DNA from: Proteiniphilum propionicum
GTDB taxonomy: Bacteria; Bacteroidota; Bacteroidia; Bacteroidales; Dysgonomonadaceae
Direction: 5' to 3'
DNA: 64,000 bases
Assembly: GCF_022267555.1 (NCBI RefSeq)
Contig: NZ_CP073586.1
Location: forward strand, 1,054,001 to 1,118,000
Below are positions 9,980 through 30,795 of this stretch, one piece after another; the stretch's first letter is position 1; the number at the start of each line of letters is the position of its first letter. Under the pieces are notes generated by a model. The model made no database searches. It was not told the DNA's origin and worked only from the letters and a program-made list of their open reading frames with translations. Position numbers and translations under genes: made by a program.

Positions 9980-9994
9980 GATTTTCTATAATGA

Positions 9995-10669: not shown

Positions 10670-10801
10670 AAATAAGTTGTCAGTTTTCGGAGGACAGCAA
10701 TCGGCTTACCGTTGATAACACTCAACATTCAGCTTTCAGCTCCGGATTCTTATTTCTAACTTTATAATCTTGTTTTCTGAATCGTTCCAATCAGTAAATC
10801 C

Positions 10802-11839: not shown

Positions 11840-11843
11840 CTTA

Positions 11844-13007: not shown

Positions 13008-13018
13008 TTATTTAAGCA

Positions 13019-13047
13019 TTCCAACCCCGGCATTGCAAGGGTTGGAA
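13019..13047. other. Intercistronic hairpin between kduD and DUF4861 gene
   Basis: Perfect 9-bp stem TTCCAACCC (13019-13027) with GGGTTGGAA (13039-13047), in the 72-base gap of an otherwise tight operon. No T-run follows on the minus strand, so it is more likely an mRNA processing or stability element than a full terminator. Confidence 0.45.
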
Positions 13048-13079
13048 CATTGTCTTTGCTTTTTTTTTATTATTCCGTT

Positions 13080-13874
13080 CTATGGTTGTTTGCCGATATA
13101 AGCTAAAATACCGCCGTCTACATAGAGGATATGCCCGTTTACAAAATTTGATGCGTCAGAAGCCAGAAAAACAGCTGGTCCCATAAGATCTTCCGGTGTT
13201 CCCCAACGGGCTGCCGGTGTTTTGGCAATGATAAACGAGTCGAAAGGGTGACGTGACCCGTCGGGCTGCCTTTCTCTTAAAGGAGCAGTTTGAGGGGTTG
13301 CAATATATCCCGGTCCAATCCCGTTGCATTGTATGTTGTGTTCTCCGTATTCTGAACAGATATTTTTCGTTAACATCTTTAACCCTCCTTTCGCTGCTGC
13401 GTATGCAGAAACGGTTTCGCGTCCCAATTCACTCATCATAGAACAGATATTAATAATTTTACCATGCCCTTTTTCGATCATGTGAGGAATAACTGCCTTC
13501 GAAACAATAAAAGGCCCGTTCAGATCAATATCAATAACCTGACGAAATTCCGCGGCTGTCATCTCATGCATGGGGATACGTTTGATGATACCCGCATTAT
13601 TCACAAGTATATCTATTACACCTATCTCTTCCGTCACCTGGGTAATAAATTTGTTTACCGCATCCTCATCGGTTACATCACATACATAACCGTGTGCTTT
13701 TATACCTTTCTCCTTGTAAGAGGCGAGGCCTTTATCTACCAGGTCCTGATTAATGTCATTGAACACAATTTTGGCTCCTGCTTCCGCGAAAGCCGTTGCC
13801 ATGGCAAAGCCAATTCCATAAGAAGCCCCGGTTACCAGGGCTATCTTTCCTTTTAATGAAAAATTAACCATCAT
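13080..13874 (-). CDS. kduD: SDR dehydrogenase, KduD-like (2-dehydro-3-deoxy-D-gluconate 5-dehydrogenase)
   Basis: KduD reduces 2,5-diketo-3-deoxygluconate, the product of KduI, to KDG with NAD(P)H in the cytoplasm. The 264-aa classical SDR shows the cofactor loop TGASYGIG (about 16), NNAGI (about 92), catalytic Ser in ICSMMSE and YAAAKGG (about 160). The C-terminus ends in VDGGILAYIG. Gluconate 5-dehydrogenases are close relatives, but placement 7 bases after kduI argues for KduD. Confidence 0.88.
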   Translation of the reverse strand: MMVNFSLKGKIALVTGASYGIGFAMATAFAEAGAKIVFNDINQDLVDKGLASYKEKGIKAHGYVCDVTDEDAVNKFITQVTEEIGVIDILVNNAGIIKRIPMHEMTAAEFRQVIDIDLNGPFIVSKAVIPHMIEKGHGKIINICSMMSELGRETVSAYAAAKGGLKMLTKNICSEYGEHNIQCNGIGPGYIATPQTAPLRERQPDGSRHPFDSFIIAKTPAARWGTPEDLMGPAVFLASDASNFVNGHILYVDGGILAYIGKQP

Positions 13875-13881
13875 ATGTTTT

Positions 13882-14724
13882 TTATTTTAGTTCCACAATT
13901 TTTGAGAAATCCTGATCGCCGTAGTCGAGATTTTCTCCTGCCATACCCCAAATAAAAGTGTAGTTGCTTGTAGCAGCGGCAGAGTGTATCGACCACTCGG
14001 GAGAGAGTACGGCCTGATCGCCTTTCATCCAGATGTGACGCGTTTCGGATGGTTCTCCCATGAAGTGGCATACAGCCTGGTCTTCCGGTACTTCAAAATA
14101 AAAATATGCCTCCATCCTGCGGGAGTGTACATGAGCAGGCATAGTGTTCCAGACACTTCCCGGAGCGAGCTCTGTCATCCCCATCTGCAGCTGACATGTC
14201 GGGAGCACCTGGTTTACAATCATTTTATTGATATTCCGATGGTTTGAGCCTTCGAGGGAGCCCATTTCTGCAACCTCCGCATCGGCCTTGGTCACTTTTT
14301 TATCGGGATAATTACGATGAGCGGTGGCCGAGTTGAAATAAAACTTCGCGGGTTTTTTGGCGTCGTCGCTTTCAAAATAAACTTCCCTGTCTCCTGAACC
14401 CAGATACAGCGCTTCTTTGTAATCGAGCTCAAAAACATCATTTCCTACCTTAACTTTACCCTTACCTCCTACATTATAGATACCTATTTCACGGCTGTGT
14501 AGGTACACAGCCTGTTTCAAAGGTTCTATCGCCTCAAGGTGCAAAGACTCGTTCACCGGCATCGCGCCTCCGACAATCATGCGGTCATACATGGAATATA
14601 CCATGTTTACCTCATCTGCACTGAACACTTTTTCTATTAAAAAATCCTTGCGCAAACGTTGTGTATCATAAGATTTTACATCCTCGGGATGCGCTGCATA
14701 ACGCAATTGATAATTTGTTTTCAT
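13882..14724 (-). CDS. kduI: 5-dehydro-4-deoxy-D-glucuronate isomerase (KduI)
   Basis: KduI isomerises 4-deoxy-5-ketouronate, which forms spontaneously from the unsaturated uronate released by GH88/GH105, to 2,5-diketo-3-deoxygluconate. The 280-aa cupin-fold enzyme has the metal site HVHSRRMEAYFYF at about residue 196 (two His and Glu) and a later His in SIHSAAATSNY. The length matches E. coli KduI (278 aa). It is the first gene of the minus-strand operon, 262 bases downstream of the GH88 gene. That gap has no clear consensus promoter. Confidence 0.95.
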   Translation of the reverse strand: MKTNYQLRYAAHPEDVKSYDTQRLRKDFLIEKVFSADEVNMVYSMYDRMIVGGAMPVNESLHLEAIEPLKQAVYLHSREIGIYNVGGKGKVKVGNDVFELDYKEALYLGSGDREVYFESDDAKKPAKFYFNSATAHRNYPDKKVTKADAEVAEMGSLEGSNHRNINKMIVNQVLPTCQLQMGMTELAPGSVWNTMPAHVHSRRMEAYFYFEVPEDQAVCHFMGEPSETRHIWMKGDQAVLSPEWSIHSAAATSNYTFIWGMAGENLDYGDQDFSKIVELK

Positions 14725-16633: not shown

Positions 16634-17704
16634 CTAATAAACAATATTATTGAATTTCTTGTAATAATCGATTGTCTCCTTTGTAAGTATGTCCAGTTGA
16701 ACATAGTTCTCCTTATTAACCGGTTTTTTGAAGGTCAAATATTCAAGTAATGTTTTCATCGCGCAAAAACCCTGATACTCCGGCTCTTGTCCAATTAAAA
16801 AATCTATCTGACCTTTTTTTAATGCTTCAATATTTGGAGAGGTAAGGTCCATGCAAATCATTTTAACCCTATTGATGTTATTTCTTAAAAGATAATCGGA
16901 GACGATGCTGCCACGTGAATTCATCACCACAATGCCTGGAACATTATCATGCTTGCTGAAAAAACGGGCCAGATAGATCTCGTTTTTTTCAGGCTCAGAA
17001 ACAGAAAAGGGAATATTTAATATATTGTGGAAGCAATTGTTTTTTGCAAGAAAATCTGTAAACCCTTTTTTCCTCTGAATGGTAGAGTTTGCACTTTTAT
17101 CACCGGTCCTGACTGCCTGTAGAATTCCAATATTAGTATTGTTAGGAATTATGGAAGTGATAAGCTTTGCCATAAGGCATCCAATCATATAATGGTCTGA
17201 AGTGAAAAAGGCAATAGGAGAAGTATTGTCAATTGTTGAATCCACAAAGACATATGGTATCTCTTTTGCATCCATTTTTTTACACAATGTTGCTGTCTCT
17301 TCGTTGAAGGTTGGCCCAACTATAAGAGCATCCATATCCATTTCTGAAATCTCTTTGAAAACTTTTTTGCAGGAGTAGATATCATACTGATTGTAAGTTA
17401 GTATGAGAGACTCCATCTTTATGTTTTCATACTCTTCAATCGCATGCCTGATACCATTGTGAATACTCTCCCAATATTCACCGTGAGATGCTTCAGGGGT
17501 AGCGACCACAATTTTGTATCTCCTCTTTAAGGAGAGAGCGGAAACGTGAATGTTGGGCTTGTAATTTACTTTTTCCAGAACTTTTTCAACAGCCAAGCGT
17601 GCCGGTTCCGATACATTACCGCGGTTGTGCAGTACCCTGTCTACAGTCCCGGCCGAAACCCCGGCCATTTCCGCTATGTCCTTAATCCTTATTTTTTTGC
17701 GCAT
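16634..17704 (-). CDS. LacI family transcriptional regulator
   Basis: A 356-aa DNA-binding regulator. The N-terminal LacI helix-turn-helix is IKDIAEMAGVSAGTVDRVLH (residues 6-25) with hinge VNYKPNIHVSALS. The rest is a periplasmic-binding-protein-type sensor. SAGTVDRVLH rather than STVSRVLN places it in the branch that senses rare sugars with a PBP-4-like domain. It lies between the two divergent uronate operons. Its own promoter carries a palindrome that recurs before uxaC and the Gfo/Idh gene, so it is the likely regulator of all three. A uronate or KDG-like inducer is inferred. Confidence 0.9.
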   Translation of the reverse strand: MRKKIRIKDIAEMAGVSAGTVDRVLHNRGNVSEPARLAVEKVLEKVNYKPNIHVSALSLKRRYKIVVATPEASHGEYWESIHNGIRHAIEEYENIKMESLILTYNQYDIYSCKKVFKEISEMDMDALIVGPTFNEETATLCKKMDAKEIPYVFVDSTIDNTSPIAFFTSDHYMIGCLMAKLITSIIPNNTNIGILQAVRTGDKSANSTIQRKKGFTDFLAKNNCFHNILNIPFSVSEPEKNEIYLARFFSKHDNVPGIVVMNSRGSIVSDYLLRNNINRVKMICMDLTSPNIEALKKGQIDFLIGQEPEYQGFCAMKTLLEYLTFKKPVNKENYVQLDILTKETIDYYKKFNNIVY

Positions 17705-17764: not shown

Positions 17765-17809
17765 TTTGTGTACGTGCACAAATATAGTGGATAATTTTCT
17801 TTTTTCAAA
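17765..17809 (-). promoter_or_regulatory. LacI gene promoter with overlapping operator
   Basis: On the minus strand there is a full consensus promoter: -33 TTTG (17806-17809), spacer of exactly 19, -7 TATATTTG (17779-17786). The 18-bp near-palindrome TTTGTGTACGTGCACAAA (17765-17782) overlaps the -7 box and the start point, as expected for autorepression. The same motif occurs at 19648 and 27572. Confidence 0.75.
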
Positions 17810-17839: not shown

Positions 17840-18480
17840 GTGCGCTACGAATACCATATATCTTTAGGGTGTAAGTCCCGAACAAGCCTTCCAGCAGGAA
17901 TTGTTAGTCAAAGACAAGGGTGTTTACCGTGAGGTAGAATCTGAAGGAAGCCGGCGACAAAATCGTGATTGAACGAACAGAAACACAATACAAGGCTTTT
18001 CTTGTGGGTGAGTGAGCACTGGATTGCGAAGCCCGATAGTTGGACGTGAACAAGGGTAGTAAATTGTATCAATTACGACGAAAGTTATATGAGTTTACCG
18101 TAGGAGGTCTGTGTAAGACAGGTGGAGACTATTCCGAGCGAACAGGTACTGCAAAGCCGTTATACAGAAGTCTGCAGAAGCCATAGTAGCGAAGAAGTTC
18201 TTTTAATGAGAATGGAGCGAAGGGCTGAAACTTTAGAGCTGATAAGTTTTTTTAGAATAGTAAAAGCCAATTACAAAGGACAGAAAATAATCGAGAACTC
18301 AGAAGCAGCTTGCAAGCCAAGCAGAATGCAGTTTAATCGGGGACCTTTTCGCTACAGACATCCCCGTATGGTATGAAAAGAGCGGGTAGGTAAGTCCTGC
18401 TTGGCTTTCTATATGCAAAGAAGAACGTCGTCAGACGACAAATTTGATGGAACGCATAGCGGACTAATAATAGGATTATA
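17840..18480 (+). mobile_element. Group II intron remnant (5' ribozyme part, no reverse transcriptase)
   Basis: It starts with GTGCGCTACG and soon has AGGGTGTAAGTCCC, the normal 5' opening of bacterial group II introns. Domain-I-like blocks follow, such as GTGAGGTAGAATCTGAAGG at about 17930, and later the GAATGGAGCGAAGGGC block at about 18210. A 500-600 residue maturase/RT gene should lie in domain IV but is missing. Instead an 11-bp stem (18314-18324 with 18397-18407) encloses a short insert. I could not find a convincing 34-nt domain V, so the intron is probably dead. The 3' limit is approximate. Confidence 0.7.
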
Positions 18481-18500
18481 GAAAAAACATTTTTGTCTAT

Positions 18501-18533
18501 ATTAAAGCTGTCTCCAAAGAAGGCAGCTTTAAT
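18501..18533. terminator. Hairpin at the IS insertion point
   Basis: Perfect 10-bp stem ATTAAAGCTG (18501-18510) with CAGCTTTAAT (18524-18533). The left end of the IS begins at the last base of this stem. It looks like a terminator that served as the insertion target. The T-tract, if there was one, is now interrupted. Confidence 0.5.
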
Positions 18534-19530
18534 TAGGGTCTGCTGAATAATCGATATTTGTACTGAAAATCAGCAAATTAATCGACATAATATTTGCATA
18601 ACTGCAATAAGTTGAGTTTTTTTACTTCGTAATCCTTGCATTTTATGATACGATACAAGAGCTCCAGACAGCTTTCAATTTCAGAGTTCAAGATGCCCTT
18701 TGAGGCAAAATTGGATGAGAATAACCGGTGGGTTGTTCTTTCAAAAATAGTTCCCTGGGAAGATTTCGCCCGGCTTTATTACAAGAACTTCAAAAGTAAC
18801 CGGGGTGCACCCACTAAGGATACCAGGCTTATGCTTGGAGTGATCATCATCAAACACATCATGAAAACGGACGACCGTGGAGTGATCGAGATGATCCGGG
18901 AGAATCCCTACATGCAGTATTTTCTTGGGCTCGAAGCCTTCACCTATGAACAGGTGATGACACCCTCGCTGCTGGTCTCCATCAGAAAGCGAATCGACCT
19001 TGATGTCTTTGAATCATTGACGGATGATTTGATAAGAAAAGGATTGGAGCTAAAAGCCGGGGCAAAAACGGAGTTCGGAGCCAAGATCAACATCAGCCTG
19101 TTGGATGACTATGCCAGGGTGGACAAGATATATCTTACCCGGGAGAACAGGCGGTTTTTGAAAGAGAAAGCAATCAGTTACACCGGTGAGCCACTGGGCC
19201 GAAAGCTGGTAAAAGAGATCAGGAGCAGATACCGGAAACGTAAAGAGCGAGGGGAAGCGGCAGAACGCAACCAGGTTGAAGGGAATTTTGGGCAGGGCAA
19301 GCGTGGATATGGTTTAAATGATATCCGCACCAGACTGTCCTCTACATCAAACAGTTGGATAGGGGCTATCATTTTTTTGATGAACCTGATCCGGCACATG
19401 AGGAATATTCCCTTGCCTTATTTTGTCTCGTTACTATTGAAGTTGATGAAAGTGAGAAATATAAACATTTATCCATTCAGACCACAATTGAATTTTTGTG
19501 CCTGATTGGGAATTAATAAGCAGACCCTAA
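18533..19530 (+). mobile_element. IS1182-like insertion sequence, internally deleted
   Basis: It is bounded by matching ends: TTAGGGTCTGCT at 18533-18544 and its inverse AGCAGACCCTAA at 19519-19530. The length of 998 bp is much shorter than a normal IS1182-type element (about 1.6-1.9 kb). The cause is a large in-frame loss inside the transposase gene. No certain target duplication is visible. The ends are intact, so it could still be moved by a full-length relative. Confidence 0.75.
18645..19505 (+). pseudogene. IS1182-like transposase lacking its DDE core
   Basis: A 286-aa open frame. Residues about 15-140 match the DUF772-type N-terminal domain of IS1182/IS5-group transposases (PTKDTRLMLGVIIIKHIMK, YMQYFLGLEAF). 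From about 148 the text jumps to the late part: EFGAKINISLLDDYARVDKIY, then TRENRRFLKE, AERNQVEGNFGQGKRGYGL and the C-terminus. The roughly 200 residues with the catalytic Asp residues are gone, yet the frame stays open. It may make a DNA-binding protein without catalysis. ATG 18645 is preferred over the TTG three codons earlier. Confidence 0.75.
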
Positions 19531-19612: not shown

Positions 19613-19665
19613 TAACTTTGGGAAATTGTGAATTGTTGATAACGTTAGCTGTGTACGTAAACAAT
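19613..19665 (+). promoter_or_regulatory. uxaC promoter -7 box with downstream operator
   Basis: A -7 box TAACTTTG (19613-19620) has no good TTTG at normal spacing. About 28 bases further on is GCTGTGTACGTAAACAAT (19648-19665), which agrees with the LacI-promoter palindrome at 14 of 18 positions. A repressor bound here would block the transcript shortly after initiation. The uxaC ATG is at 19707. Confidence 0.6.
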
Positions 19666-19706: not shown

Positions 19707-21107
19707 ATGAAAAGTTTTATACATGAGGATTTTTTGCTACAGACTGATGCTGCCAGGCAACTGTATCATGATCATGCAAAAAAACAACCCATTATCGACT
19801 ATCATTGTCATCTGAATCCTGAATACATTGCAAAGGATCACGTTTTCGACAATCTGGGGCAGATATGGCTTGAAGGAGATCATTACAAGTGGCGTGCCAT
19901 GCGCACCAACGGGGTTGAGGAAAGGTACTGTACAGGAAAGGATACCTCCGACTGGGAAAAGTTTGAAAAATGGTCCGAAACGGTTCCTTACACTATGCGA
20001 AATCCATTGTATCACTGGACTCATCTGGAGTTGAAGAGAGCTTTCGGAGTGGATGAACTGTTGAGTCCCGATACGGCAAAGGAGATATATGATATATGTT
20101 CCGGGAAACTTCGTACACCGGAGTTCTCAGCTAGGGGGTTAATGAAAAAGTTTCACGTTGAGGTGGTATGCACCACCGACGATCCGACAGACACCCTTGA
20201 GCATCATCTAGCATTGAAAAAAGAGGGTTTTGAGATCAAGGTGCTTCCGACATGGCGCCCCGATAAAGCTATGGCGGTAGAGAATCCTGAGGAATACCGT
20301 GCCTATGTTGAAAAGTTGTCGGAGGTATCGGGTGTAGCAATCAACAAGTTTAAAGATTTTATTGAAGCGCTCCGGAAGAGGCATGATTTTTTTGCAGGTG
20401 TGGGTTGTAAACTTTCCGATCACGGGATAGAGGAGTTCTATGCTGAACCATACACACAGGCTGTAATTGACCAAATCTTCAATAAAGTGTATGGAGGAAA
20501 GGAGCTGACAAAAGAGGAAATTCTCCAATTCAAATCGGCAATGTTATTCGAGGGTGCTGTAATGGATTGGGAGAAAGGATGGACTCAACAATTCCACTAT
20601 GGTGCTATTCGTAACAATAATACAAGGTTATTCAGACAGCTTGGCCCGGATACAGGATTTGACTCAATTGGTGATTTCACAGTTGCAAAGGCAATGAGCC
20701 GCTTTTTAGATCAGCTGGACAAAGACAACAGGCTGGCCAAAACCATTATTTACAACCTTAATCCAAAAGACAACGACTTGGTAGCAACCATGATAGGTAA
20801 TTTTCAGGATGGATCGGTTGCAGGGAAAATACAATTCGGTTCCGGCTGGTGGTTCCTTGATCAAAAAACAGGCATGGAGGCACAAATGAACTCTTTGTCT
20901 AACCTTGGCCTGTTAAGCCGGTTCGTGGGTATGCTTACCGATTCGCGCAGCTTCCTTTCCTATCCGCGGCACGAGTATTTCCGTCGTATCTTGTGTAACC
21001 TAATTGGCAATGACGTAGAGAATGGGTTGTTGCCTGCTTCGGAAATGAATTTTCTCGGGAAAATGGTGGAAGACATATCCTACAGGAATGCGAAGAATTT
21101 TTTGTAA
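19707..21107 (+). CDS. uxaC: Uronate isomerase (UxaC)
   Basis: UxaC isomerises D-galacturonate to D-tagaturonate and D-glucuronate to D-fructuronate in the cytoplasm. The 466-aa TIM-barrel enzyme has the metal-binding DYHCHLNP near residue 30, VVCTTDDPTDTLEHH at about 155, RPDKAMAVENPEEY at about 183, and LTDSRSFLSYPRHEYFRRIL near the C-terminus. The length is that of the family (470 aa in E. coli). It is the first gene of the plus-strand uronate operon, 18 bases before uxaE, and is preceded by a LacI-type operator. Confidence 0.96.
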   Translation: MKSFIHEDFLLQTDAARQLYHDHAKKQPIIDYHCHLNPEYIAKDHVFDNLGQIWLEGDHYKWRAMRTNGVEERYCTGKDTSDWEKFEKWSETVPYTMRNPLYHWTHLELKRAFGVDELLSPDTAKEIYDICSGKLRTPEFSARGLMKKFHVEVVCTTDDPTDTLEHHLALKKEGFEIKVLPTWRPDKAMAVENPEEYRAYVEKLSEVSGVAINKFKDFIEALRKRHDFFAGVGCKLSDHGIEEFYAEPYTQAVIDQIFNKVYGGKELTKEEILQFKSAMLFEGAVMDWEKGWTQQFHYGAIRNNNTRLFRQLGPDTGFDSIGDFTVAKAMSRFLDQLDKDNRLAKTIIYNLNPKDNDLVATMIGNFQDGSVAGKIQFGSGWWFLDQKTGMEAQMNSLSNLGLLSRFVGMLTDSRSFLSYPRHEYFRRILCNLIGNDVENGLLPASEMNFLGKMVEDISYRNAKNFL

Positions 21108-21125
21108 TTTTCAAATACAGATATA

Positions 21126-22373
21126 ATGAAACTAGGAAAATACAGTATTGGCGTGGGTGATCGTTTCGCTCATCAGGGAAAAGCTCAGTTGAAAGCTATC
21201 ATGAGGGCAAACGAGAAGGGGTTGAATATTAGCCCTGTATGGAATAAGTCAAACAGAGAACATATCTATGTGGGAACAGAACCCGCCGACACACGCAACG
21301 AAGCCGATGAGGCTGTGAAAGCGCTGGGTTTTACAGGCACTTACTTTGTGGATGCAGATCATATTAACCTGAATACAGTAGCCAAATATGTGGCTGTGTC
21401 CGATTTTTTCACGCTCGATGTCGCATCATTTATCGGCAAAGGAAGCAGCAAGGAGGAGGTAGACTCTTTTGTTACTTCATGTGAAAAATACCTGGGTCAG
21501 CTGCAAATTCCCGGGATGGATGAGCCGCTGCATGTAACCAAAGAATTGTTGCACGAAATTGCAGGCAAGTTCCTGGCAGCAACACAGCATGCATCCGATA
21601 TTTATGCCTATTTGAAAAAAGAGAAGGGCGAAGGCAATTTTATTACCGAGGTATCCATGGATGAGGTTGAGTCTCCCCAAACACCCATCGAGATGCTTTT
21701 CATCTTGAAAATGCTGGCCGATAAAGGTGTTCCTGCACAGACGATTGCTCCCAAATTTACCGGCCGGTTTAATAAAGGCGTGGATTATGTTGGCAATCTG
21801 GATCAGTTTGCCAAAGAGTTTGAAGAGGATGTGCTTGTGATTGATTTTTCTGTGAAGGAGTTTGGGCTGCCCGAAGAACTGAAGCTGAGTGTTCATTCGG
21901 GAAGCGATAAGTTTTCTATCTATCCGATTATGGCGGAGGTTATCCGGAAATACGACAAAGGGTTGCACCTCAAAACAGCAGGAACAACCTGGCTGGAGGA
22001 GGTAATCGGTTTGGCTGTAGCAGGCGGTGAAGGCCTGGAATTGGCAAAGAAGATTTATGAGAACTCCTACAACCGGAAAGAAGAGCTGTGCGCTCCTTAT
22101 GCCGATGTGATCGATATCGATGGTTCTAAGCTCCCTTCCGTGGAAGAGGTGAATGGATGGTCAAGCGAAAAGTTTGCAAATACACTTCGTCATATTCCCG
22201 GACATGCCGATTATAATTCCAATTTCCGTCAGTTAATTCACGTAGCCTATAAAGTAGCAGCAGAAATGGGCAGTGAATATACAGAGTTACTTATAAAGTA
22301 CGCAGATATAATTGGTTCATGTGTGGAAGATAATATTTACGAAAGGCATTTGAAAAGATTGTTTGCAATTTAG
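21126..22373 (+). CDS. uxaE: Tagaturonate 3-epimerase (UxaE family)
   Basis: A 415-aa enzyme of the UxaE type, first described in Thermotoga, which converts D-tagaturonate to D-fructuronate so that the galacturonate and glucuronate routes merge. Typical stretches are GKYSIGVGDRFAHQGKAQL at the start, GTYFVDADHINLNTV at about 80, PKFTGRFNKGVDYVGN near 220, VHSGSDKFSIYP near 258 and HIPGHADYNSNFRQL near 358. Its His, Asp and Glu residues would hold the divalent metal. Its place right after uxaC supports the role. No UxaB or UxaA is present, as expected when UxaE is used. Confidence 0.88.
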   Translation: MKLGKYSIGVGDRFAHQGKAQLKAIMRANEKGLNISPVWNKSNREHIYVGTEPADTRNEADEAVKALGFTGTYFVDADHINLNTVAKYVAVSDFFTLDVASFIGKGSSKEEVDSFVTSCEKYLGQLQIPGMDEPLHVTKELLHEIAGKFLAATQHASDIYAYLKKEKGEGNFITEVSMDEVESPQTPIEMLFILKMLADKGVPAQTIAPKFTGRFNKGVDYVGNLDQFAKEFEEDVLVIDFSVKEFGLPEELKLSVHSGSDKFSIYPIMAEVIRKYDKGLHLKTAGTTWLEEVIGLAVAGGEGLELAKKIYENSYNRKEELCAPYADVIDIDGSKLPSVEEVNGWSSEKFANTLRHIPGHADYNSNFRQLIHVAYKVAAEMGSEYTELLIKYADIIGSCVEDNIYERHLKRLFAI

Positions 22374-22537
22374 CAAAGAGTGATGTGTATGGTCAGTGTT
22401 AAAGAAGATTCTAACTAATTGCCCTAATTTTTAATTTGTCGCTTTTGGAAGAGATTATTACGTGAAATACGATTTTAAAGTTAGCATATCGAGCTATATT
22501 TGCCTGCAACATAAAATAAATAATAAAGTAAAAACTT

Positions 22538-23350
22538 ATGTATAAATTATTTGACATCAGAAACAAAGTTATTGTCATTACAGGAGGAACCGGCGTGCTG
22601 GGAACGTCGATGGTGGAATATCTGGCGGAACACGGCGCAAAGGTCGCTGTTTTGGCACGAAACAAGCAAAAAGGTGATAAACTGGTGAAGAAAGTAAAAG
22701 CGGATGGGGGAGATGTAATATTCCTCCAGACAGACGTAACTGATGAGGCCGTTCTAAAGCAGAATGCCAAAGAGATTGCTGAAAAATACGGAAAAATTGA
22801 TGTGTTGATCAATGGTGCAGGTGGAAATATGCCTGGTGCAACCATTGGCCCCAACAACTCCATCTTTGATCTGAAGACTGATGATTTCCGGAAAGTTGTT
22901 GAACTGAATCTGATGGGAACGGTTGTTCCCACGCTGGCTTTTGCAGAGTACATGGTGAAAGAGAAAAAAGGAAATATCGTGAATATCTCCTCCGCATCGG
23001 CCTTGCGACCCTTGACCCGTGTAGCAGGATATGGAGCTGCCAAAGCAGCTGTAACCAATTTCACCAAGTACATGGCTGGAGAATTGGCGATTAAATTCGG
23101 GGAAGATTTTAGGGTGAATGCCCTTTGTCCCGGATTTTTCATAACAGAGCAAAACAGAGCACTGCTCACAAATCCCGATGGTTCTTATTCTGATCGGGGA
23201 AATACTATAATCGCACATACTCCTTTCCGTCGTTTCGGTGTTCCGGAAGATCTTTTGGGGACACTGCACTATCTGGTAAGCGATGCTTCCAAATTTGTCA
23301 CAGGTACGGTGGCAATTGTAGATGGAGGTTTTGATGCTTTCAGTATTTAA
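22538..23350 (+). CDS. SDR-type D-mannonate oxidoreductase (fructuronate reductase)
   Basis: A 270-aa classical SDR: cofactor loop TGGTGVLG (about 15), NGAGGN (about 91), catalytic Ser in NISSASAL and YGAAKAA (about 165), C-terminus VDGGFDAFSI. Members with this GGTGVLG start and the GAGGN(M)PGAT segment reduce D-fructuronate to D-mannonate in uronate loci (the SDR kind of UxuB, as in Bacillus YjmF). Its place after uxaE agrees. It starts 165 bases after uxaE, and the spacer holds no obvious promoter. Long reverse-strand frames overlapping it are shadows. Confidence 0.85.
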   Translation: MYKLFDIRNKVIVITGGTGVLGTSMVEYLAEHGAKVAVLARNKQKGDKLVKKVKADGGDVIFLQTDVTDEAVLKQNAKEIAEKYGKIDVLINGAGGNMPGATIGPNNSIFDLKTDDFRKVVELNLMGTVVPTLAFAEYMVKEKKGNIVNISSASALRPLTRVAGYGAAKAAVTNFTKYMAGELAIKFGEDFRVNALCPGFFITEQNRALLTNPDGSYSDRGNTIIAHTPFRRFGVPEDLLGTLHYLVSDASKFVTGTVAIVDGGFDAFSI

Positions 23351-23382
23351 TAGGAGTGCAATCAGTTATCAGTAAATAAAAT

Positions 23383-24462
23383 ATGTCACTCAAACTAAGA
23401 AAAGAATTCAAATATTCACTGGTGGTACCCACCAGTATGGGAGTTCGTATTACACCGATGAATGCGCAGCCGGTGCAAAGTACCAACCTGTTTCAGATGC
23501 AGGCAACAAGCGCTGAAACCAACGTTGCTAGCATTTCTTCTTACCTGGGACTGCCGGTAAAGGTGCTTACTGCTTTTGTAAAAGATAGTCCCATAGCGGC
23601 TTTTATTAAAGCCGATCTCAGAGCACGGAATATGGACTATGAAGGGCCTGAGGTGCCCCAGGGCGGCCCGTGGGGATACCGCCACCAGTTCAATATTGCA
23701 GACAGCGGGTTCGGGCTGCGTGGGCCGCGAGTACAAAACGACAGGGCAGGTGAGGTGGGGAGAACGCTGAATGTGAAAGATTTCGACCTAGAACGAATTT
23801 TCGGCGTGGAGGGAGTCCAGATTGTACATCTCTCCGGACTGATTGCTGCGCTGTCTCCCGAAACAAGTAATTTTTGCCTGGAGATTGCACGCTATGCAAA
23901 AAAACATGGCACGTTGATCTCTTTTGATCTCAATCACAGAGCTTCTTTCTGGAAAGGCCGTGAAAAGGAACTTCACGAGGCGTTCACCGAAATAGCCTCC
24001 CTCTCCGATATTCTTATCGGTAATGAAGAGGATTTTCAGCTTTGTCTTGGAATTGAGGGCCCCAAAGCAGGAGGAGAAAATATTGAAGATACTATGGACG
24101 CTTTCAAAGGGATGATTATGAATGCAAAACGTGCTTTCCCTAATGTTACTGTGTTTGCCAATACATTACGGGAAGTGATCAGTGCCAATGAACATCTCTG
24201 GGGGGCTATTGTTTATGAAAACGGGAATTGGCACGAAGCTCCTTTGAGAAAGATCAATGTGATGGATCGTATAGGAGGAGGCGATGGCTTTGTAGGGGGA
24301 TTGCTCTACAGCATTTTAAAAAAAATGGAGCCTGATAAATGGGTGCAGTTTGCCTGGGCGAGCGGCGCTTTGGCAACAACTTTCCTGACTGATTATGCAC
24401 AACCGGCCGATGAAGAGGTGATCTGGAGCATCTGGAAAGGAAATGCAAGAGTAAAAAGATAA
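23383..24462 (+). CDS. PfkB family kinase of the uronate operon (KDG kinase or aldonate kinase)
   Basis: A 359-aa PfkB-fold kinase. AETNVASISSYLGLP stands for the substrate-side GG.NxA motif (about 44), FDLNHRASFWKGREKEL is at about 185, and the catalytic motif DRIGGGDGFVGGLLY is at about 290. By family it would be annotated as 2-keto-3-deoxygluconate kinase. However, the operon has no mannonate dehydratase to make KDG, while gnd and a LarA-type epimerase follow. Phosphorylation of D-gluconate (or D-mannonate) is therefore a real alternative. It differs from kdgK at 10802 in both motifs (GGGDG versus GGGDS). Confidence 0.82.
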   Translation: MSLKLRKEFKYSLVVPTSMGVRITPMNAQPVQSTNLFQMQATSAETNVASISSYLGLPVKVLTAFVKDSPIAAFIKADLRARNMDYEGPEVPQGGPWGYRHQFNIADSGFGLRGPRVQNDRAGEVGRTLNVKDFDLERIFGVEGVQIVHLSGLIAALSPETSNFCLEIARYAKKHGTLISFDLNHRASFWKGREKELHEAFTEIASLSDILIGNEEDFQLCLGIEGPKAGGENIEDTMDAFKGMIMNAKRAFPNVTVFANTLREVISANEHLWGAIVYENGNWHEAPLRKINVMDRIGGGDGFVGGLLYSILKKMEPDKWVQFAWASGALATTFLTDYAQPADEEVIWSIWKGNARVKR

Positions 24463-24541
24463 TTGTAAACAATAAACGGATAATCAGAAATCGGATTATT
24501 ATCTTAAGGTTTGGATTTCTGGTCTTAATAATCTATAAGAA

Positions 24542-25996
24542 ATGAAAAAGAAAGCAGATATAGGGTTGATCGGATTAGCTGTGATGGGCGAAAATCTGGT
24601 ATTGAATATGGAAAGTAAGGGTTATACCGTAGCCGTTTACAACCGTACAGTGACTAAAGTGGATGGCTTCCTTGAGGGAAGAGGGAAAGGGAAGAACTTT
24701 ATTGGTGCTCACTCCCTGGAAGAGTTTGTGGCTTCCATTGAAAGACCACGTAAGGTAATGATGCTTGTAAAAGCTGGTAAGCCTGTGGATGATTTTATTG
24801 AGCTATTGATTCCATTACTTGAGCCGGGAGATATTATTATTGATGGCGGTAACAGCCATTTCCCCGATACGATGCGCAGGACAAAACAGGTGGAAAGCAA
24901 AGGATTGCTCTATGTGGGTACTGGTGTTTCCGGTGGTGAAGAGGGAGCATTGAAAGGCCCGTCGATGATGCCGGGGGGATCACCCGAAGCGTGGCCACAC
25001 GTGAAAGAGATCTTTCAGTCGGTGGCAGCCAAGGTGGACGGAGGCGTTCCCTGCTGCGACTGGGTAGGAGAGAACGGTGCGGGGCACTTCGTGAAGATGG
25101 TGCACAACGGCATTGAGTACGGCGATATGCAGATCATCAACGAAGCGTATCATCTGATGAAAGATTTGCTGGGTATGGACGCTTTTGAGCAGCACGAGGT
25201 GTTTAAAAAATGGAACAAAGGTGTCCTGGATTCCTATCTGATTGAAATTACCACGGATATTCTCGACTTTAAAGACGAAGATGGCTCCCCATTGGTGGAG
25301 AAAATTCTCGATACAGCCGGCCAGAAAGGTACCGGAAAATGGACCGCCGTCACCGCGCTCGACCTGGGTATTCCTCTCACGCTTATAGGTGAATCGGTAT
25401 TCTCTCGATGTCTCTCAGCCCAAAAGAATCTGAGGGTAAAAGCATCTAAAACCATCTCCGGTAAAAAACCGGAGTTCAGGGGTGATAAACAGCAGTTTAT
25501 TGATGATCTGGAGCAAGCATTGTATGGTGCCAAGATCATCTCATACGCGCAGGGTTACGACCTGATGATGGAAGCTGCCAGAGAGTATGGCTGGAATCTT
25601 AATTACGGAGGTATTGCCCTGATGTGGAGAGGCGGATGTATTATCCGTTCACGCTTTTTAGGTGATATTAAAAAGGCATTTGATAACAATCCCCGATTAG
25701 AGAATCTACTGCTCGACCCCTTCTTCAAAGAGGCAGTACAGTCGGCACAGGAGAGCTGGCGAAGGGTTTGTGCTACTGCTCTTCTGAATGGTATCCCCGT
25801 ACCGGCGCTTACCTCTGCTTTGAACTATTTCGACGGGTTTCGCAGCGAGCGCCTTCCGGCGAATCTTCTGCAGGCACAGCGTGACTATTTCGGTGCTCAC
25901 CAATATGAGCGTGTGGATAAGCCACGGGGTGAATTCTTTCATACCGACTGGACCGGGTATGGAGGAAGTACGGCTTCTACAACTTATGATGTTTAA
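24542..25996 (+). CDS. gnd: 6-phosphogluconate dehydrogenase, decarboxylating
   Basis: Gnd oxidises 6-phosphogluconate to ribulose 5-phosphate and CO2 with NADP+ (or NAD+). The 484-aa enzyme has the Rossmann motif GLIGLAVMGENLVLNM at the N-terminus, DGGNSHFPDTMRR (about 102), GVSGGEEGALKGPSMMPGG (about 130) and KMVHNGIEYGDMQ (about 184) with the catalytic Lys and Glu. It ends in HTDWTGYGGS. It would usually be found with zwf and pgl. Here it sits in a uronate operon instead, between a PfkB kinase and a LarA-family protein, which suggests that 6-phosphogluconate is made from aldonate. Confidence 0.96.
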   Translation: MKKKADIGLIGLAVMGENLVLNMESKGYTVAVYNRTVTKVDGFLEGRGKGKNFIGAHSLEEFVASIERPRKVMMLVKAGKPVDDFIELLIPLLEPGDIIIDGGNSHFPDTMRRTKQVESKGLLYVGTGVSGGEEGALKGPSMMPGGSPEAWPHVKEIFQSVAAKVDGGVPCCDWVGENGAGHFVKMVHNGIEYGDMQIINEAYHLMKDLLGMDAFEQHEVFKKWNKGVLDSYLIEITTDILDFKDEDGSPLVEKILDTAGQKGTGKWTAVTALDLGIPLTLIGESVFSRCLSAQKNLRVKASKTISGKKPEFRGDKQQFIDDLEQALYGAKIISYAQGYDLMMEAAREYGWNLNYGGIALMWRGGCIIRSRFLGDIKKAFDNNPRLENLLLDPFFKEAVQSAQESWRRVCATALLNGIPVPALTSALNYFDGFRSERLPANLLQAQRDYFGAHQYERVDKPRGEFFHTDWTGYGGSTASTTYDV

Positions 25997-26071
25997 TGTT
26001 GATAAGGGGTTGTGATGATTCGATGATACGACTTGAATTTTCGACATCCCCTGTCTCAAATCCGATATAGG

Positions 26072-27358
26072 ATGATTTATTACGAAAATGGTTCTTCTCA
26101 GGCCAACTTATCGAAGGAAGATCTGAAGCAAGGACTTTACGAAGCATTGAAAAGATTGGGAGAACGGAAGAAAATTCTGGCCGTTCCGCCCGATTATACC
26201 CGCTTGCCCAGCAGGGCAGGAGAGCTGACGGAGATGACATGGGAGTACTATGGTGATAAACTGACCGATATCCTTCCTGCATTGGGTACACATACGCCCA
26301 TGACAGCACACCAGATCAGCCACATGTTCGGCGAAACACCGGAAACACTTTTTCGGGATCACGACTGGCGCAACGACGTGCTCACCATGGGTGAGGTACC
26401 GGCAGAATACATCCGGGAGGTATCGGAAGGAAAGGTCGATTTCTCCTGGCCGGCGCAGGTTAATAAACTGCTAGTGGAGGGGGGCTTCGATCTGATCTTA
26501 TCCATCGGGCAGGTGGTTCCCCACGAAGTGGTGGGGATGGCTAACTATAATAAGAATATCCTTGTCGGTACCGGAGGTAGTGAAGGGATTAACAAGAGTC
26601 ACTATATTGGTGCGGTGTACGGCATGGAGCGAATGATGGGAAGAGCCGATACTCCGGTGCGAAAGGTGTTCAATTATGCCACGGAAAAGTTTCTGAAGCA
26701 GTTGCCTATCGTCTATGTGCTGACAGTGGTTGGAGTAAATGAAAAAGGAGAACAACAGACTTACGGCCTTTTCGTCGGTGATAACTTGGATGTGTTTAAC
26801 CGGGCGGCGAAGTTGTCGCTTGAGGTTAACTTTGTGATGGTAGAAAAACCTCTGCAGAAGGTGGTAGTATGGCTCGATCCCACTGAATTTAAAAGTACAT
26901 GGCTGGGCAATAAGTCTGTTTACCGTACACGAATGGCTATTGCCGATGGAGGTGAGCTGATTGTACTGGCACCCGCCCTGAAAGAGTTCGGTGAGGACAA
27001 AAAGATAGACAGCCTGATCCGTAAATACGGCTATTTCGGTACTCCCTACACATTGAAAGCAGTGTCGGAGAATCAAGACCTGAGAGACAACCTTGGGGCG
27101 GCTGCCCATCTTATTCACGGGTCGTCCGAAGGCAGGTTTTCCATCACTTATTGTCCCGGGAAAGCACCGGAAAACCTTTCAAGGCAAGAGATTGAAAGTG
27201 TAGGATTCAAATGGGAAGATATTGACAAGGCTATGGGAAAATATACCCCTCATAGCCTTAATGAGGGATTTAACACCCTGCCGGATGGAGAAGAAATCTA
27301 CTACATCTCCAGCCCTGCCCTGGGACTGTGGGCGCACAGAGACCGGTTTGAATATTAA
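26072..27358 (+). CDS. LarA-family nickel-pincer racemase/epimerase, possible D-gluconate/D-mannonate 2-epimerase
   Basis: A protein of about 428 aa of the LarA superfamily (DUF2088 N-terminal domain). LarA enzymes racemise or epimerise alpha-hydroxy acids with a nickel pincer nucleotide. The residues expected from LarA are all visible: PPDYTR (Arg), ALGTHTP (His), VVPHEVVG (His), NYNKNILVG (pincer-bearing Lys) and INKSHYIGA (Ni-binding His). Family members include a D-gluconate 2-epimerase, and mannonate is the 2-epimer of gluconate. With gnd and mannonate oxidoreductase in the same operon, this substrate is the best guess. LarB, LarC and LarE are not in the window. ATG 26072 is preferred to an upstream TTG. 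Confidence 0.82.
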   Translation: MIYYENGSSQANLSKEDLKQGLYEALKRLGERKKILAVPPDYTRLPSRAGELTEMTWEYYGDKLTDILPALGTHTPMTAHQISHMFGETPETLFRDHDWRNDVLTMGEVPAEYIREVSEGKVDFSWPAQVNKLLVEGGFDLILSIGQVVPHEVVGMANYNKNILVGTGGSEGINKSHYIGAVYGMERMMGRADTPVRKVFNYATEKFLKQLPIVYVLTVVGVNEKGEQQTYGLFVGDNLDVFNRAAKLSLEVNFVMVEKPLQKVVVWLDPTEFKSTWLGNKSVYRTRMAIADGGELIVLAPALKEFGEDKKIDSLIRKYGYFGTPYTLKAVSENQDLRDNLGAAAHLIHGSSEGRFSITYCPGKAPENLSRQEIESVGFKWEDIDKAMGKYTPHSLNEGFNTLPDGEEIYYISSPALGLWAHRDRFEY

Positions 27359-27571
27359 TAGTATACGTATATATGCAATGGACCGTAATTTTTAGAGGCC
27401 TGTTCGTAACTTCCTGATTATATGAGTTTAAGTTGCCCTTAAAAACAGATAGTATAGTTAGCTGATTATATGGTTGTTTAGTAAAATTCAGAAGGACCAT
27501 TTATGCGTGCAATGCAGATTTAATGTTTTTTAAGTTTATTTTTTTTGTATCATTAAATATATGCTGCTACA

Positions 27572-27601
27572 TTTGTGGACGTGCACAATCTTATATCTTT
27601 A
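27572..27601 (+). promoter_or_regulatory. Promoter and LacI-type operator of the Gfo/Idh gene
   Basis: TTTG (27572-27575), an 18-base spacer and TATCTTTA (27594-27601) form a plausible promoter. The palindrome TTTGTGGACGTGCACAAT (27572-27589) covers its -33 box and matches the LacI-gene operator at 16 of 18 positions. Apart from this, the 365-base gap 27359-27723 shows only AT-rich leader. Confidence 0.68.
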
Positions 27602-27723: not shown

Positions 27724-29145
27724 ATGACAACAAGAAGAGAATTTATTAAAAATGCGGCTTTGGCATCTGCAGGGCTGGCCATGGGCGGCATATCAACAAA
27801 AATGAATGCAGCAAGCTACAACAGGGTTGTCGGCGCCAATAAAAAAGTAAACCTGGCTCATATAGGCATCGGCAACAGGGGTTGGGAGATCATCAACGAT
27901 TTTGATAAAACGGGCCTGGCCAACGTGGTGGCATTGTGCGATGTGGATCTGGGCGGGGAACATACCCAAAAAGCGCTGGCTAAATTCCCGAACGCAAAAA
28001 GGTTCAAAGACTTCAGGGAGATGTTTGACAAGATGGGAAATGAGATAGAGGCAGTGGCTATTGCTACACCAGACTTCGCCCACTTCCCGGCAGTAATGTT
28101 GTCTATGGCCGAAGGGAAACACGTTTATGTGGAGAAACCGCTGAGCCGCACTTTCCTTGAGTCGGAGCTGATAATGAAAGCAGCTAAGAAGTATCCAGGG
28201 GTGGTTACCCAGATGGGTAATCAGGGACACTCTGAAGCCAATTATTTTCAGTTCAAAGCATGGAAAGAAGCCGGTATCATTAAAGATGTGACAGCTGTCA
28301 CCGCTCATATGAATAACCCCCGCCGTTGGCACGGTTGGGATACGGGCATTAAAAAGTTCCCCGTGGCTGAACCGATACCTGAGACGCTGGATTGGGATAC
28401 CTGGCTGATGGCTCGTAATTACCATGACTACAACAAGGATTTTCACTATGGTCAGTGGCGTTGCTGGTACGATTTTGGTATGGGAGCCCTGGGCGACTGG
28501 GGAGCACATATTATTGATACTGTTCATGATTTCCTAGAACTGGGATTGCCTGAAGAGGTAACACCTTTAAAACTTTCTGGACATAACGACTACTTCTTTC
28601 CGATGTCGAGCACGATCGAGTTCAAGTTCCCGAAACGGGGCAATATGCCACCGGTAGTCATTACCTGGTATGATGGTGTGGATAATATCCCTTCTGTACC
28701 GGAAGGGTATGGTGTCTCGGAAATAGATCCAAATATTCCGTCAGTAGCAGGAGGAAAGATTCAGCCGGCCAAACTGAACCCCGGAAAAGAGATATATAGT
28801 AAAGAGTTGACTTTCAAAGGGGGGTCTCATGGGAGCACATTGAGCATCATCCCGGAAGAGAAAGCCAGGGCAATGGAGAAAAGATTGCCTGAAGTCCCGA
28901 AAAGCTCCTCCAACCACTTTGCCAACTTTCTTTTGGCCTGCCAGGGCAAGGAAAAAACACGTTCTCCATTTGAGATATCGGCTCCATTGAGTCAGGTGTT
29001 CTGTCTGGGGGTAGCAGCACAACGGTTGAACCGGAAAATTGTATTTGACAGGGAGACGAAGCGTGTGACCAACGATGCTTTTGCCGATGCTTTCCTTACG
29101 GGAGAACCGCCCAGGAAAGGATGGGAAGATTTTTATATTGTTTGA
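27724..29145 (+). CDS. TAT-exported Gfo/Idh/MocA family oxidoreductase
   Basis: A 473-aa NAD(P)-dependent sugar oxidoreductase with a twin-arginine signal: TTRREFIKNAALASAGLAMGG (residues 2-22). Export by TAT implies that it folds in the cytoplasm with its cofactor bound and acts in the periplasm. The Rossmann loop is GIGNRGWE (about 48), followed by the EKPLSR motif typical of the family (about 137) and a WHGWDTG stretch. Such exported members act on glycosides at C3 or elsewhere through a bound cofactor. The DUF1080 genes that follow support a 3-keto-glycoside role. Its promoter carries the LacI-type operator. Confidence 0.88.
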   Translation: MTTRREFIKNAALASAGLAMGGISTKMNAASYNRVVGANKKVNLAHIGIGNRGWEIINDFDKTGLANVVALCDVDLGGEHTQKALAKFPNAKRFKDFREMFDKMGNEIEAVAIATPDFAHFPAVMLSMAEGKHVYVEKPLSRTFLESELIMKAAKKYPGVVTQMGNQGHSEANYFQFKAWKEAGIIKDVTAVTAHMNNPRRWHGWDTGIKKFPVAEPIPETLDWDTWLMARNYHDYNKDFHYGQWRCWYDFGMGALGDWGAHIIDTVHDFLELGLPEEVTPLKLSGHNDYFFPMSSTIEFKFPKRGNMPPVVITWYDGVDNIPSVPEGYGVSEIDPNIPSVAGGKIQPAKLNPGKEIYSKELTFKGGSHGSTLSIIPEEKARAMEKRLPEVPKSSSNHFANFLLACQGKEKTRSPFEISAPLSQVFCLGVAAQRLNRKIVFDRETKRVTNDAFADAFLTGEPPRKGWEDFYIV

Positions 29146-29299
29146 TATTTAACTTGAAAGTAGTAGGGGTTGAAATGTTTATTTATAATGCATTGGATGT
29201 CAATATCTTTTTAGCCCACTTGTAATGAAAGAGACTTCTCGAAGGGTACTTATCACGTGCAATGTAAAATATGATGGTTTAAATTTCAAAAGCCAATGA

Positions 29300-29410
29300 T
29301 GAGTCCTCTCCGAAAACCTCAAAACCCAATTTTATTGGTTTGCAACATATTGAAAATCAATGTTCATCTTGTGAAATTTTCAAGAAAAAAGACTTATCGG
29401 AAGAGACTCA
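29300..29410 (+). repeat. Dispersed repeat family 1, copy 3 (111 bp)
   Basis: Both ends are intact: TGAGTC (29300-29305) and GACTCA (29405-29410). The inner stem is TTGAAAAT (29350-29357) with ATTTTCAA (29376-29383). Compared with copy 2, a C-G pair has become T-A on both arms, a compensatory change. It ends 29 bases before the start codon of the double DUF1080 gene, similar to copy 2 before the VOC gene. Confidence 0.78.
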
Positions 29411-29439
29411 ATGATTAATCAGTAAAAAAAGAGATACAG

Positions 29440-30795
29440 ATGAGAAATATATTTCTAACATTTATAGCGGTAGTATTAGCTATCTCCGCTTCGGCACAGG
29501 AGCCGAAATGGGAGAATCTGTTCAACGGACGCAACCTGAGGGGATGGGAAAAATTGAACGGAACAGCAGAGTATAAAGTACAGGACAATATTATTGTTGG
29601 TATTTCCAGAATGAACACCCCAAACACCTTTCTGGCGACAAAAAAGACCTACAGCGATTTTATACTGGAATTCGATTTTAAAGTGGATGACGGGCTTAAT
29701 TCGGGAGTTCAGTTCAGGAGCAACAGCTTGAAAGAGTATAAAGACGGTAGGGTACACGGGTATCAGTTTGAGATCGACCCTTCCGGTAGGGCTTGGACTG
29801 GTGGCATCTATGATGAAGCCCGCCGGGGATGGCTATATCCGATGAACTACAACCCGAAAGGGCAGAATGCTTTTAAAAACGGAGAGTGGAATCGCGCCCG
29901 TGTTGAAGCGATAGGTAACTCTATTCGCACCTGGGTGAACGGTATCCCTTGCGCCGACTTGTTGGATGATGTAACCCGCTCGGGTTTTATTGCCCTTCAG
30001 GTTCATGCCATTGGAAGTGCTGGACAGGAAGGAAAAACAGTTTCTTGGCGCAACATACGTATCATGACCGAGGATCTCGAACGGTTCAAGTCACCTGAAA
30101 GCAAAGATATCTGCCAGCTTAATATAATAGCTAACACTATCTCGGAGAGGGAAGCCGGGGAAGGGTGGAAGCTGCTGTGGAATGGAAAAACTACCGAAGG
30201 GTGGCGGGGTGCCAAGTTGGATCATTTTCCTGAAAAGGGATGGTCAATTGAAAACGGTATTCTGAAGGTGCATAAGAGTGACGGCGGTGAGTCAACAAAC
30301 GGAGGTGATATCGTGACTACCCGCCCTTATAAGAACTTCATGCTGAAGGTGGATTTCAAAATTACCGAAGGAGCTAACAGCGGCATTAAATATTTTGTGG
30401 ATACCAATCTTAATAAAGGGCAGGGTTCAGCTATTGGCTGCGAATTCCAGATACTGGACGATAAAAAGCACCCCGATGCAAAACTGGGAGTAGAAGGGAA
30501 CAGGACCCTTGGCTCGCTCTACGACCTGATTGCGGCACCCATGGACAAACCTTTCCGCAGCGGTTTCTTCAATACGGCCATGGTAATAGTGGATGGGAAC
30601 CATGTAGAGCACTGGCTTAATGGGGTGAAGATTATTGAGTATGAGAGAAATAATCAGATGTGGAATGCGCTGGTGAACTATAGCAAATACAAAGACTGGC
30701 CAAATTTTGGTAATGCGGAAGAGGGACTGCTTCTTCTACAGGATCACGGAGACGAGGTGTGGTTCCAGAATATCAAAATTAAGGAGTTGGAGTAG
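29440..30795 (+). CDS. Secreted protein with two DUF1080 (3-keto-disaccharide hydrolase-like) domains
   Basis: A 451-aa exported protein (signal [10 protein letters not shown], cleaved at about residue 19). It contains two concanavalin-like DUF1080 domains, about 22-215 and 230-450. Each opens with [12 protein letters not shown] or [12 protein letters not shown] and has an F.LEFDFKV/F.LKVDFKI strand and an SGVQFRS/SGIKYFV motif. DUF1080 proteins are associated with hydrolysis or hydration of 3-keto-glycosides. Its neighbour is a TAT-exported oxidoreductase that could make such substrates. The tandem arrangement is less common than a single domain. A family 1 repeat forms its leader and a hairpin follows at 30895. 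Confidence 0.87.

Follow-up and report, generated by a model that had tools for sequence, protein, structure and literature searches.

A uronate operon of Proteiniphilum propionicum that may carry mannonate through gluconate into the pentose phosphate pathway, with a LarA-type protein whose known cofactor genes are incomplete

Where does D-mannonate go in a bacterium whose uronate operon appears to produce it and whose genome yields no match to UxuA? The question is raised by a 64,000-nucleotide (nt) stretch of Proteiniphilum propionicum DNA (contig NZ_CP073586.1, positions 1,054,001 to 1,118,000), analysed here at its full length and called the window. An earlier note on this DNA had read in it uxaC, uxaE, a short-chain dehydrogenase/reductase (SDR) gene, a PfkB-family kinase gene, gnd and a LarA-family gene; all six are present and intact, lie in a single direction and are supported by profile matches (where two bit scores are given, the second is the cut-off):

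19707-21107, + strand: uxaC, uronate isomerase (PF02614, 681 bits; NF002794, 660 against 387)
21126-22373, + strand: uxaE, tagaturonate/fructuronate epimerase (PF16257, 192 bits against 27.1; none of the NCBIfam models matched)
22538-23350, + strand: SDR D-mannonate oxidoreductase, in the fructuronate reductase role (NF006132 'D-mannonate oxidoreductase', 367 bits against 281)
23383-24462, + strand: PfkB-family kinase, proposed gluconate (or mannonate) kinase (PF00294, 73 bits against 25.8; pocket unlike KdgK)
24542-25996, + strand: gnd, 6-phosphogluconate dehydrogenase (TIGR00873, 760 bits against 426.7; the sole copy found in the genome)
26072-27358, + strand: larA1, LarAH18 protein, proposed D-mannonate/D-gluconate 2-epimerase (NF052594, 661 bits against 500; signature residues; fold nearest 4nar)

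The intergenic gaps from uxaC to larA1 are 18, 164, 32, 79 and 75 nt. These values place the LarA1 start at ATG 26072, giving a protein of 428 amino acids whose Met at that position is invariant across 36 aligned relatives; the listed TTG at 26033 is the less likely start. The source contig is single, with 3,906,720 bases, and the genome is 99.99% complete. The gene content suggests that the operon serves the catabolism of glucuronate and galacturonate.

The uronate route sets carbon 2 as in mannonate, and gluconate differs from mannonate at carbon 2 alone, so an inversion at C2 is needed to pass from one to the other. We propose, with a probability of about 0.62, that the operon encodes a shunt from mannonate through gluconate and 6-phosphogluconate to ribulose 5-phosphate. 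UxaC would make fructuronate and tagaturonate, UxaE would interconvert the two, and the SDR would reduce fructuronate to D-mannonate. The LarAH18 protein would then invert C2 by nickel-pincer hydride transfer to yield D-gluconate, the PfkB kinase would phosphorylate gluconate to 6-phosphogluconate, and Gnd would convert this to ribulose 5-phosphate, CO2 and NADPH. Up to ribulose 5-phosphate, the route would be redox-neutral if the SDR uses NADPH. We infer every enzyme activity in this scheme from sequence, as well as the order of epimerase before kinase. The same series of steps had been put forward in the earlier note, and it gains from the gluconate 2-epimerase (GntE) residues of LarA1, the sole gnd in the operon, the lack of uxuA and of an edd match over its cut-off, a PfkB unlike KdgK, and the clustering of the genes. 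The idea itself is not new, as a mannonate-gluconate route has already been proposed for Thermotoga maritima (PMC7583248 and PMC6978723; these and the other papers cited here are drawn on for the portions of their text available to us).

LarA1 falls by score into group 18 of the LarA superfamily (LarAH18), its 661 bits being to a model named 'nickel-dependent putative hexonate epimerase'; a second LarAH18 copy in the same genome, larA2, scores 571 bits against this model. In the available text of PMC7583248 the substrate of LarAH18 is so far only hypothesised, GntE activity on mannonate having been measured for groups other than 18; conversion of mannonate to gluconate is described there for groups 19 and 20, whose features group 18 shares. 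As a rule, gluconate 2-epimerases have E, V, A and H at the substrate positions 175, 176, 358 and 359 of LarA numbering (PMC11770544). This signature recurs in LarAH18, with E in 111, V in 111, A in 109 and H in 111 of 111 non-identical sequences (a set that excludes identical copies and the 5 of 80 loci without a larA call), residue positions having been assigned by visual inspection of alignments, with 358/359 placed through the 4nar alignment and the published A,H pattern. The catalytic and nickel-pincer nucleotide (NPN) positions H108, H174, K184, H200 and K298 are kept in all 111 sequences and the equivalent of R75 in 110, D72 and R75 each showing one gap. An AlphaFold model of LarA1, with a mean predicted local distance difference test (pLDDT) score of 90, is nearest in fold to 4nar of T. 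maritima (template modelling (TM) score 0.79; sequence match 135 bits), followed by lactate and malate racemases.

The genome also holds a third LarA homolog (L011:9302-11917), which is malate-racemase-like (311 bits, cut-off 500) and adjoins an Nramp-family transporter; its surroundings read by eye as a glycan-degradation locus.

What other outlets would mannonate and 6-phosphogluconate have? The lack of uxuA that the earlier note saw in operon and window extends to the whole genome: PF03786 gave 0 matches in the window or in the complete 3.9-Mb sequence, in a search that was positive in 5 of 14 control genomes. The operon gnd is the only copy that the genome search returned; zwf is sited elsewhere, without an adjoining gnd and followed by a gene that looks pgl-like by eye. 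A search for edd returned a single match, which at 246 bits is far under the cut-off of 708 and is probably IlvD. Because edd was matched only below its cut-off, Gnd is the likely exit for 6-phosphogluconate.

The AlphaFold-type model of the PfkB protein (mean pLDDT 83) has T. maritima KdgK, 2afb, as its nearest fold (TM 0.79, 27% identity). Within one set of fetched loci, a pocket common to 40 PfkB orthologs differs from that of 13 KdgK-like proteins: the orthologs keep SAETNVAS, PWGYRHQ and GGGDGF as against GGGEANVA and GGGDSF in KdgK, with the GGGD motif kept. On these motif differences we rejected a plain KdgK, and the operon protein looks like a separate kinase subfamily whose substrate would be gluconate or mannonate. 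The KdgK equivalog cut-offs (400-700) do not discriminate, because the neighbouring KdgK-like kinase also falls short of them (49-491 bits, against 26-170 for the operon PfkB); the difference in pocket is the stronger argument.

The main rival reading reverses the order of two steps. PfkB would phosphorylate D-mannonate first and LarA would epimerise 6-phosphomannonate to 6-phosphogluconate for Gnd, leaving the net pathway unchanged. A mannonate kinase and a 6-phosphomannonate 2-epimerase were detected in Lactobacillus suebicus extracts, the genes being unknown (PMC6978723, available text), and LarA homologs show high Km values for free mannonate (120 and 17 mM in PMC7583248; 9.4 and 3.8 mM in PMC11770544). 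The order of genes is also suggestive, as pfkB directly precedes larA in many relatives. However, the GntE enzymes of T. maritima and others act on free mannonate (PMC7583248, PMC11770544), and we regard a kinase-first order as a serious though rather unlikely alternative.

We then asked how widely the cluster is kept. A profile search of genome contigs returned at least 574 LarAH18 loci, and the best 80 of these (the wider loci) come mainly from Bacteroidota, with some from Planctomycetota, Ignavibacteria, Verrucomicrobia, Kiritimatiellae and Lentisphaerae; the closest LarA matches among those listed are on contigs of Proteiniphilum, Petrimonas and Fermentimonas. Neighbourhoods were counted in the 41 wider loci whose sequence extends 6 kb to each side of larA; the other 39 fall short of this on one side and were dropped. 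Of the 41, 38 have gnd on the same strand no more than 6 kb from larA, 36 have an SDR and 26 a pfkB ortholog, defined by an identity of 60% or more; UxuA is within this distance in 5 of the 41, and uxuA in 8 of all 80 loci. Some loci without the ortholog hold a more distant PfkB (about 34%). Within the family Dysgonomonadaceae, LarAH18 exceeds its cut-off in 53 of 101 genomes, and the SDR, pfkB, gnd and larA1 genes are all present in each of 20 stretches taken from these 53 (no fewer than 4 of these stretches recur among the wider loci). A survey of the class found LarAH18 in the window's own genome only out of 395, but that set held one other family member and is hence uninformative for the family. 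The survey of relatives that the earlier note suggested bears out the pairing of larA with gnd (20/20 family and 38/41 wider loci), a clustering that we take to exceed chance, whereas the expected loss of uxuA is not strict. In 50 genomes, those of 50 of the 80 wider loci, PF03786 matched in 25, of which 20 exceed 300 bits and 5 show weaker matches only. We accordingly rejected a strict loss of uxuA with gain of larA, as 25 of the 50 LarAH18 genomes match both; the comparison has no baseline of uxaC-positive, LarAH18-negative genomes, and we claim no association. Given these 25 genomes and the 8 loci with uxuA near larA, the route often runs beside UxuA and is not a strict substitute for it.

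Four wider loci (L061, L062, L086 and L088) have a gene resembling PfkA or a pyrophosphate-dependent phosphofructokinase near larA and gnd, with no PfkB ortholog found, and three of them have a haloacid dehalogenase (HAD) protein; two of these four loci are over the identity limit. The 4-phosphoerythronate dehydrogenase gene pdxB is on the same strand near larA in 34 of the 80 loci, often between larA and gnd; the copy at L038:11297-12430 scores 447 against 434 bits.

The neighbourhoods also bear on whether LarA acts on some other acid derived from uronates, such as altronate, gulonate or an aldarate, with PfkB as a second 2-keto-3-deoxygluconate (KDG) kinase and gnd serving only to supply the SDR with NADPH. 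The authors of PMC7583248 suspect another substrate for the group 19 enzyme GntE1 on account of its high Km, and PfkB resembles KdgK most closely in fold. Yet a separate KdgK-like kinase adjoins, the pocket of the operon PfkB differs from it, the LarA residues fit gluconate 2-epimerases, and if nothing supplied 6-phosphogluconate it would be strange for gnd to lie close to larA in 38 of 41 loci. We consider this reading improbable.

The mannonate-gluconate shunt calls for an active LarA1, and the earlier note had assumed a cofactor made by LarB, LarC and LarE. This assumption did not hold up. To our knowledge, LarB is the first enzyme of the only known route to the nickel-pincer cofactor. Synthesis of this cofactor is described as requiring LarB, LarE and LarC (PMC11796402). 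The window's own genome has three LarA homologs, and larE (320 against 150 bits) and larB (278 against 175 bits) adjoin the second, larA2. LarC gave no match there with TIGR00299 or PF01969, each positive in 6 of 14 controls, and with LarC not found the full LarB, LarC and LarE host set for an NPN-dependent LarA is incomplete in this genome. As to a LarC hidden by divergence, the two models gave no candidate in the own genome, which was not searched with the divergent Marinilabiliaceae proteins; TIGR00299 does pick up these shorter proteins, at 83-90 bits.

The Marinilabiliaceae LarC-like proteins have 262-271 amino acids, against about 390 elsewhere (L109:6070-6858, L110:5974-6771 and L111:5872-6687), and the L111 copy adjoins larB and larE.

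Across the 50 LarAH18 genomes, LarC is present in 22, over the cut-off in 19. Its presence on the LarAH18 tree takes 11-12 changes and is scattered though with some clustering, values as low being reached in 7 and 1 of 500 shuffles; the incompleteness of metagenome-assembled genomes makes this pattern hard to read. In that tree the L176 and L177 proteins were entered more than once. The LarC search within the family covered the own genome and five others that we assign to it (L016, L018, L019, L032 and L053; G483 and G527 were not searched), and none of the five had LarC; the LarE search covered the own genome only. For LarB, the family LarAH18 proteins were split by score into the operon type larA1 (at least 632 bits) and larA2 (571-586 bits), the latter forming a separate branch of the LarAH18 tree. 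LarB is over its cut-off in 3 of 101 family genomes. The three larA2 genomes (the own genome, which counts in both types, G483 and G527) have larE and larB adjoining larA2 in every case. Only 1 of the 51 larA1 genomes has LarB, the one being the window's own; the remaining LarB matches are weak, no more than 60 bits against the cut-off of 175, and probably represent PurE. Because LarB was found in 1 of 32 larA1 family genomes of 90% or higher completeness and 5% or lower contamination (counted by hand) and in none of the single-contig larA1 genomes G484, G492, G493 and G496, we rejected an assembly artefact. No larE, larB or larC was found within 6 kb of larA in the 41 full-flank wider loci. 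In G483, by contrast, the order is SDR-pfkB-larA2-larE-larB-gnd, with the cassette in the place of larA1. This gene order shows cofactor genes joining the uronate operon and ties the pathway to pincer-cofactor enzymes, which makes their lack with larA1 the more striking.

Could LarA1 then be a cofactor-less remnant with no metabolic role? LarC was not found here, nor LarB in 50 of the 51 operon-type family genomes, but the cofactor and catalytic residues are kept in 111 sequences and the gene in 20 of 20 family loci taken, and we think a remnant very unlikely. A tentative alternative, to which we give slightly less than even odds, is that in most Dysgonomonadaceae the operon LarAH18 works without the known pincer synthesis set. 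Cofactor or precursor may come from neighbouring microbes, undescribed enzymes may make it, or a different cofactor may occupy the pocket; for the own genome, with its larE and larB, insertion of nickel may proceed without LarC.

The larA2-larE-larB region (L010:8344-19998, or C1:3042344-3053998 of the own genome) lies downstream of, and in the same direction as, genes for a TonB receptor, a DUF5074 protein, PKD-like and leucine-rich-repeat-like surface proteins and a DUF6580 membrane protein. We take the DUF5074 protein upstream of larA2 to be BtuG-like. L177 likewise has a related TonB/DUF5074 pair next to the cassette, and these neighbours could form an uptake system linked to the cofactor. 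A cobalamin riboswitch (L010:8098-8287) precedes metE (region L010:3838-8287), whose N-terminal part and C-terminal part, the latter recognised by eye, are split by transposase-like open reading frames.

Several points weigh against the mannonate-gluconate shunt. Our literature search (titles and abstract starts, with subscription journals thinly covered) found no assay of any LarAH18 protein and no PfkB-family gluconate kinase that we recognised. The signature residues were placed by eye, the pfkB ortholog is missing from 15 and gnd from 3 of the 41 full-flank loci, and half of the LarAH18 genomes examined have a UxuA-family match. Because LarC was not found here and LarB was not found in most family relatives, a working holoenzyme is not assured. 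Gluconate could have another fate if the SDR at 13080-13874 (below) is a gluconate 5-dehydrogenase. The operon route is the sole mannonate outlet found in the genome, in searches that did not cover enolase-type mannonate dehydratases, altronate dehydratase or a separate gluconokinase.

The nearest known system is the T. maritima route with GntE2 of LarAH20, which has in common a UxaC/UxaE upper part, a LarA-type C2 epimerase, a gluconate kinase and entry into the pentose phosphate pathway (PMC7583248, PMC6978723). The Proteiniphilum operon differs in its LarA group (18 as against 20, with a 135-bit match to 4nar), in its PfkB-type kinase in place of GntK, and in having gnd inside the operon; uxuA and LarC were not found here, whereas our searches detected both in T. 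maritima as a control. The isomerase-phosphoketolase route of L. suebicus likewise takes mannonate to 6-phosphogluconate and then Gnd, but the kinase acts before the epimerase there, the genes are unknown and the phylum is different (PMC6978723, available text). With the canonical UxuA-KdgK-Eda branch the operon has UxaC, UxaE and mannonate in common, but this genome has no UxuA. LarA1 is a member of group 18 by score; what is added here is the operon context and the missing cofactor genes. If the mannonate-gluconate reading is right, the uronate-to-pentose-phosphate shunt also occurs in Bacteroidota, in a common operon with a kinase of a new type, and LarAH18 gains a concrete candidate substrate. 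The orphan LarA1 is the part that specialists would not expect: many genomes, including four single-contig ones besides the window's, keep a pincer enzyme with intact cofactor residues but without LarB, so that salvage of the cofactor, its synthesis by another route or its replacement by another cofactor can be tested directly. Our literature search recognised no description of this operon or of a LarA without LarB.

A neighbouring KDG branch is encoded on the opposite strand:

8513-14724, - strand: KDG branch as a whole, including a major facilitator superfamily transporter (profile matches)
9995-10669, - strand: 2-keto-3-deoxy-6-phosphogluconate (KDPG) aldolase
10802-11839, - strand: KdgK-like kinase
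11844-13007, - strand: BT3233-family protein
13080-13874, - strand: SDR, read as KduD (gluconate 5-dehydrogenase model NF005488, 520 against 369; KduD model, 237 against 339, below cut-off)
13882-14724, - strand: KduI

The SDR is read as KduD because kduI adjoins it. Without UxuA, we know of no way from mannonate into this branch, and its KdgK and aldolase probably serve KduI-derived products.

Sites that may control the operon lie on both of its sides:

16634-17704, - strand: LacI-family regulator, probably of the operon (PF00356/PF13407; a divergent lacI relative adjoins the operon in several family loci)
17767-17780, no strand assigned: palindromic operator-like site TGTGTACGTGCACA before lacI (motif scan)
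19613-19620, + strand: possible -7 element TAACTTTG before uxaC (read from the sequence; the strict two-box scan has no site here)
19650-19663, no strand assigned: operator-like site TGTGTACGTAAACA before uxaC (motif scan)
27544-27588, + strand: promoter-like TTTG-N-TACATTTG that overlaps an operator-like site, upstream of the gene pair that follows (pattern and motif scans)

The palindrome-like motif TGTGTACGTRMACAA precedes lacI (17767), uxaC (19650) and the post-operon Gfo/Idh gene (27574). With up to 3 mismatches it has 12 matches in the window against 4.3 expected, a number reached by 0 of 100 shuffles. Palindromic sites were scored once per strand, and some of the matches lie away from these three genes. 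A scan of the window and 21 loci, which make 19 distinct sequences as L184, L185 and L190 are second copies of contigs, placed a site just before uxaC, SDR or lacI in 13 of the 19, the window included, with a chance control for the window only; L178, L182, L187, L188, L189 and L191 had none there. The strict Bacteroidota promoter pattern has 9 window sites against 3.7 expected and none before uxaC, where TAACTTTG was read from what we take to be the Bacteroidota -7 consensus.

Between lacI and uxaC lie group II intron RNA pieces (17923-18225) and an IS5-like element (18533-19530), recognised by eye, which is shortened, has inverted ends and carries a transposase below cut-off; the operator-like sites are preserved on either side of these elements (17923-19530). 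Beyond larA1, a Gfo/Idh dehydrogenase and a 3-keto-disaccharide hydrolase-family protein form a pair (27724-30795) that has a promoter-like and operator-like site of its own. In 17 of the 20 family loci the Gfo gene comes after larA.

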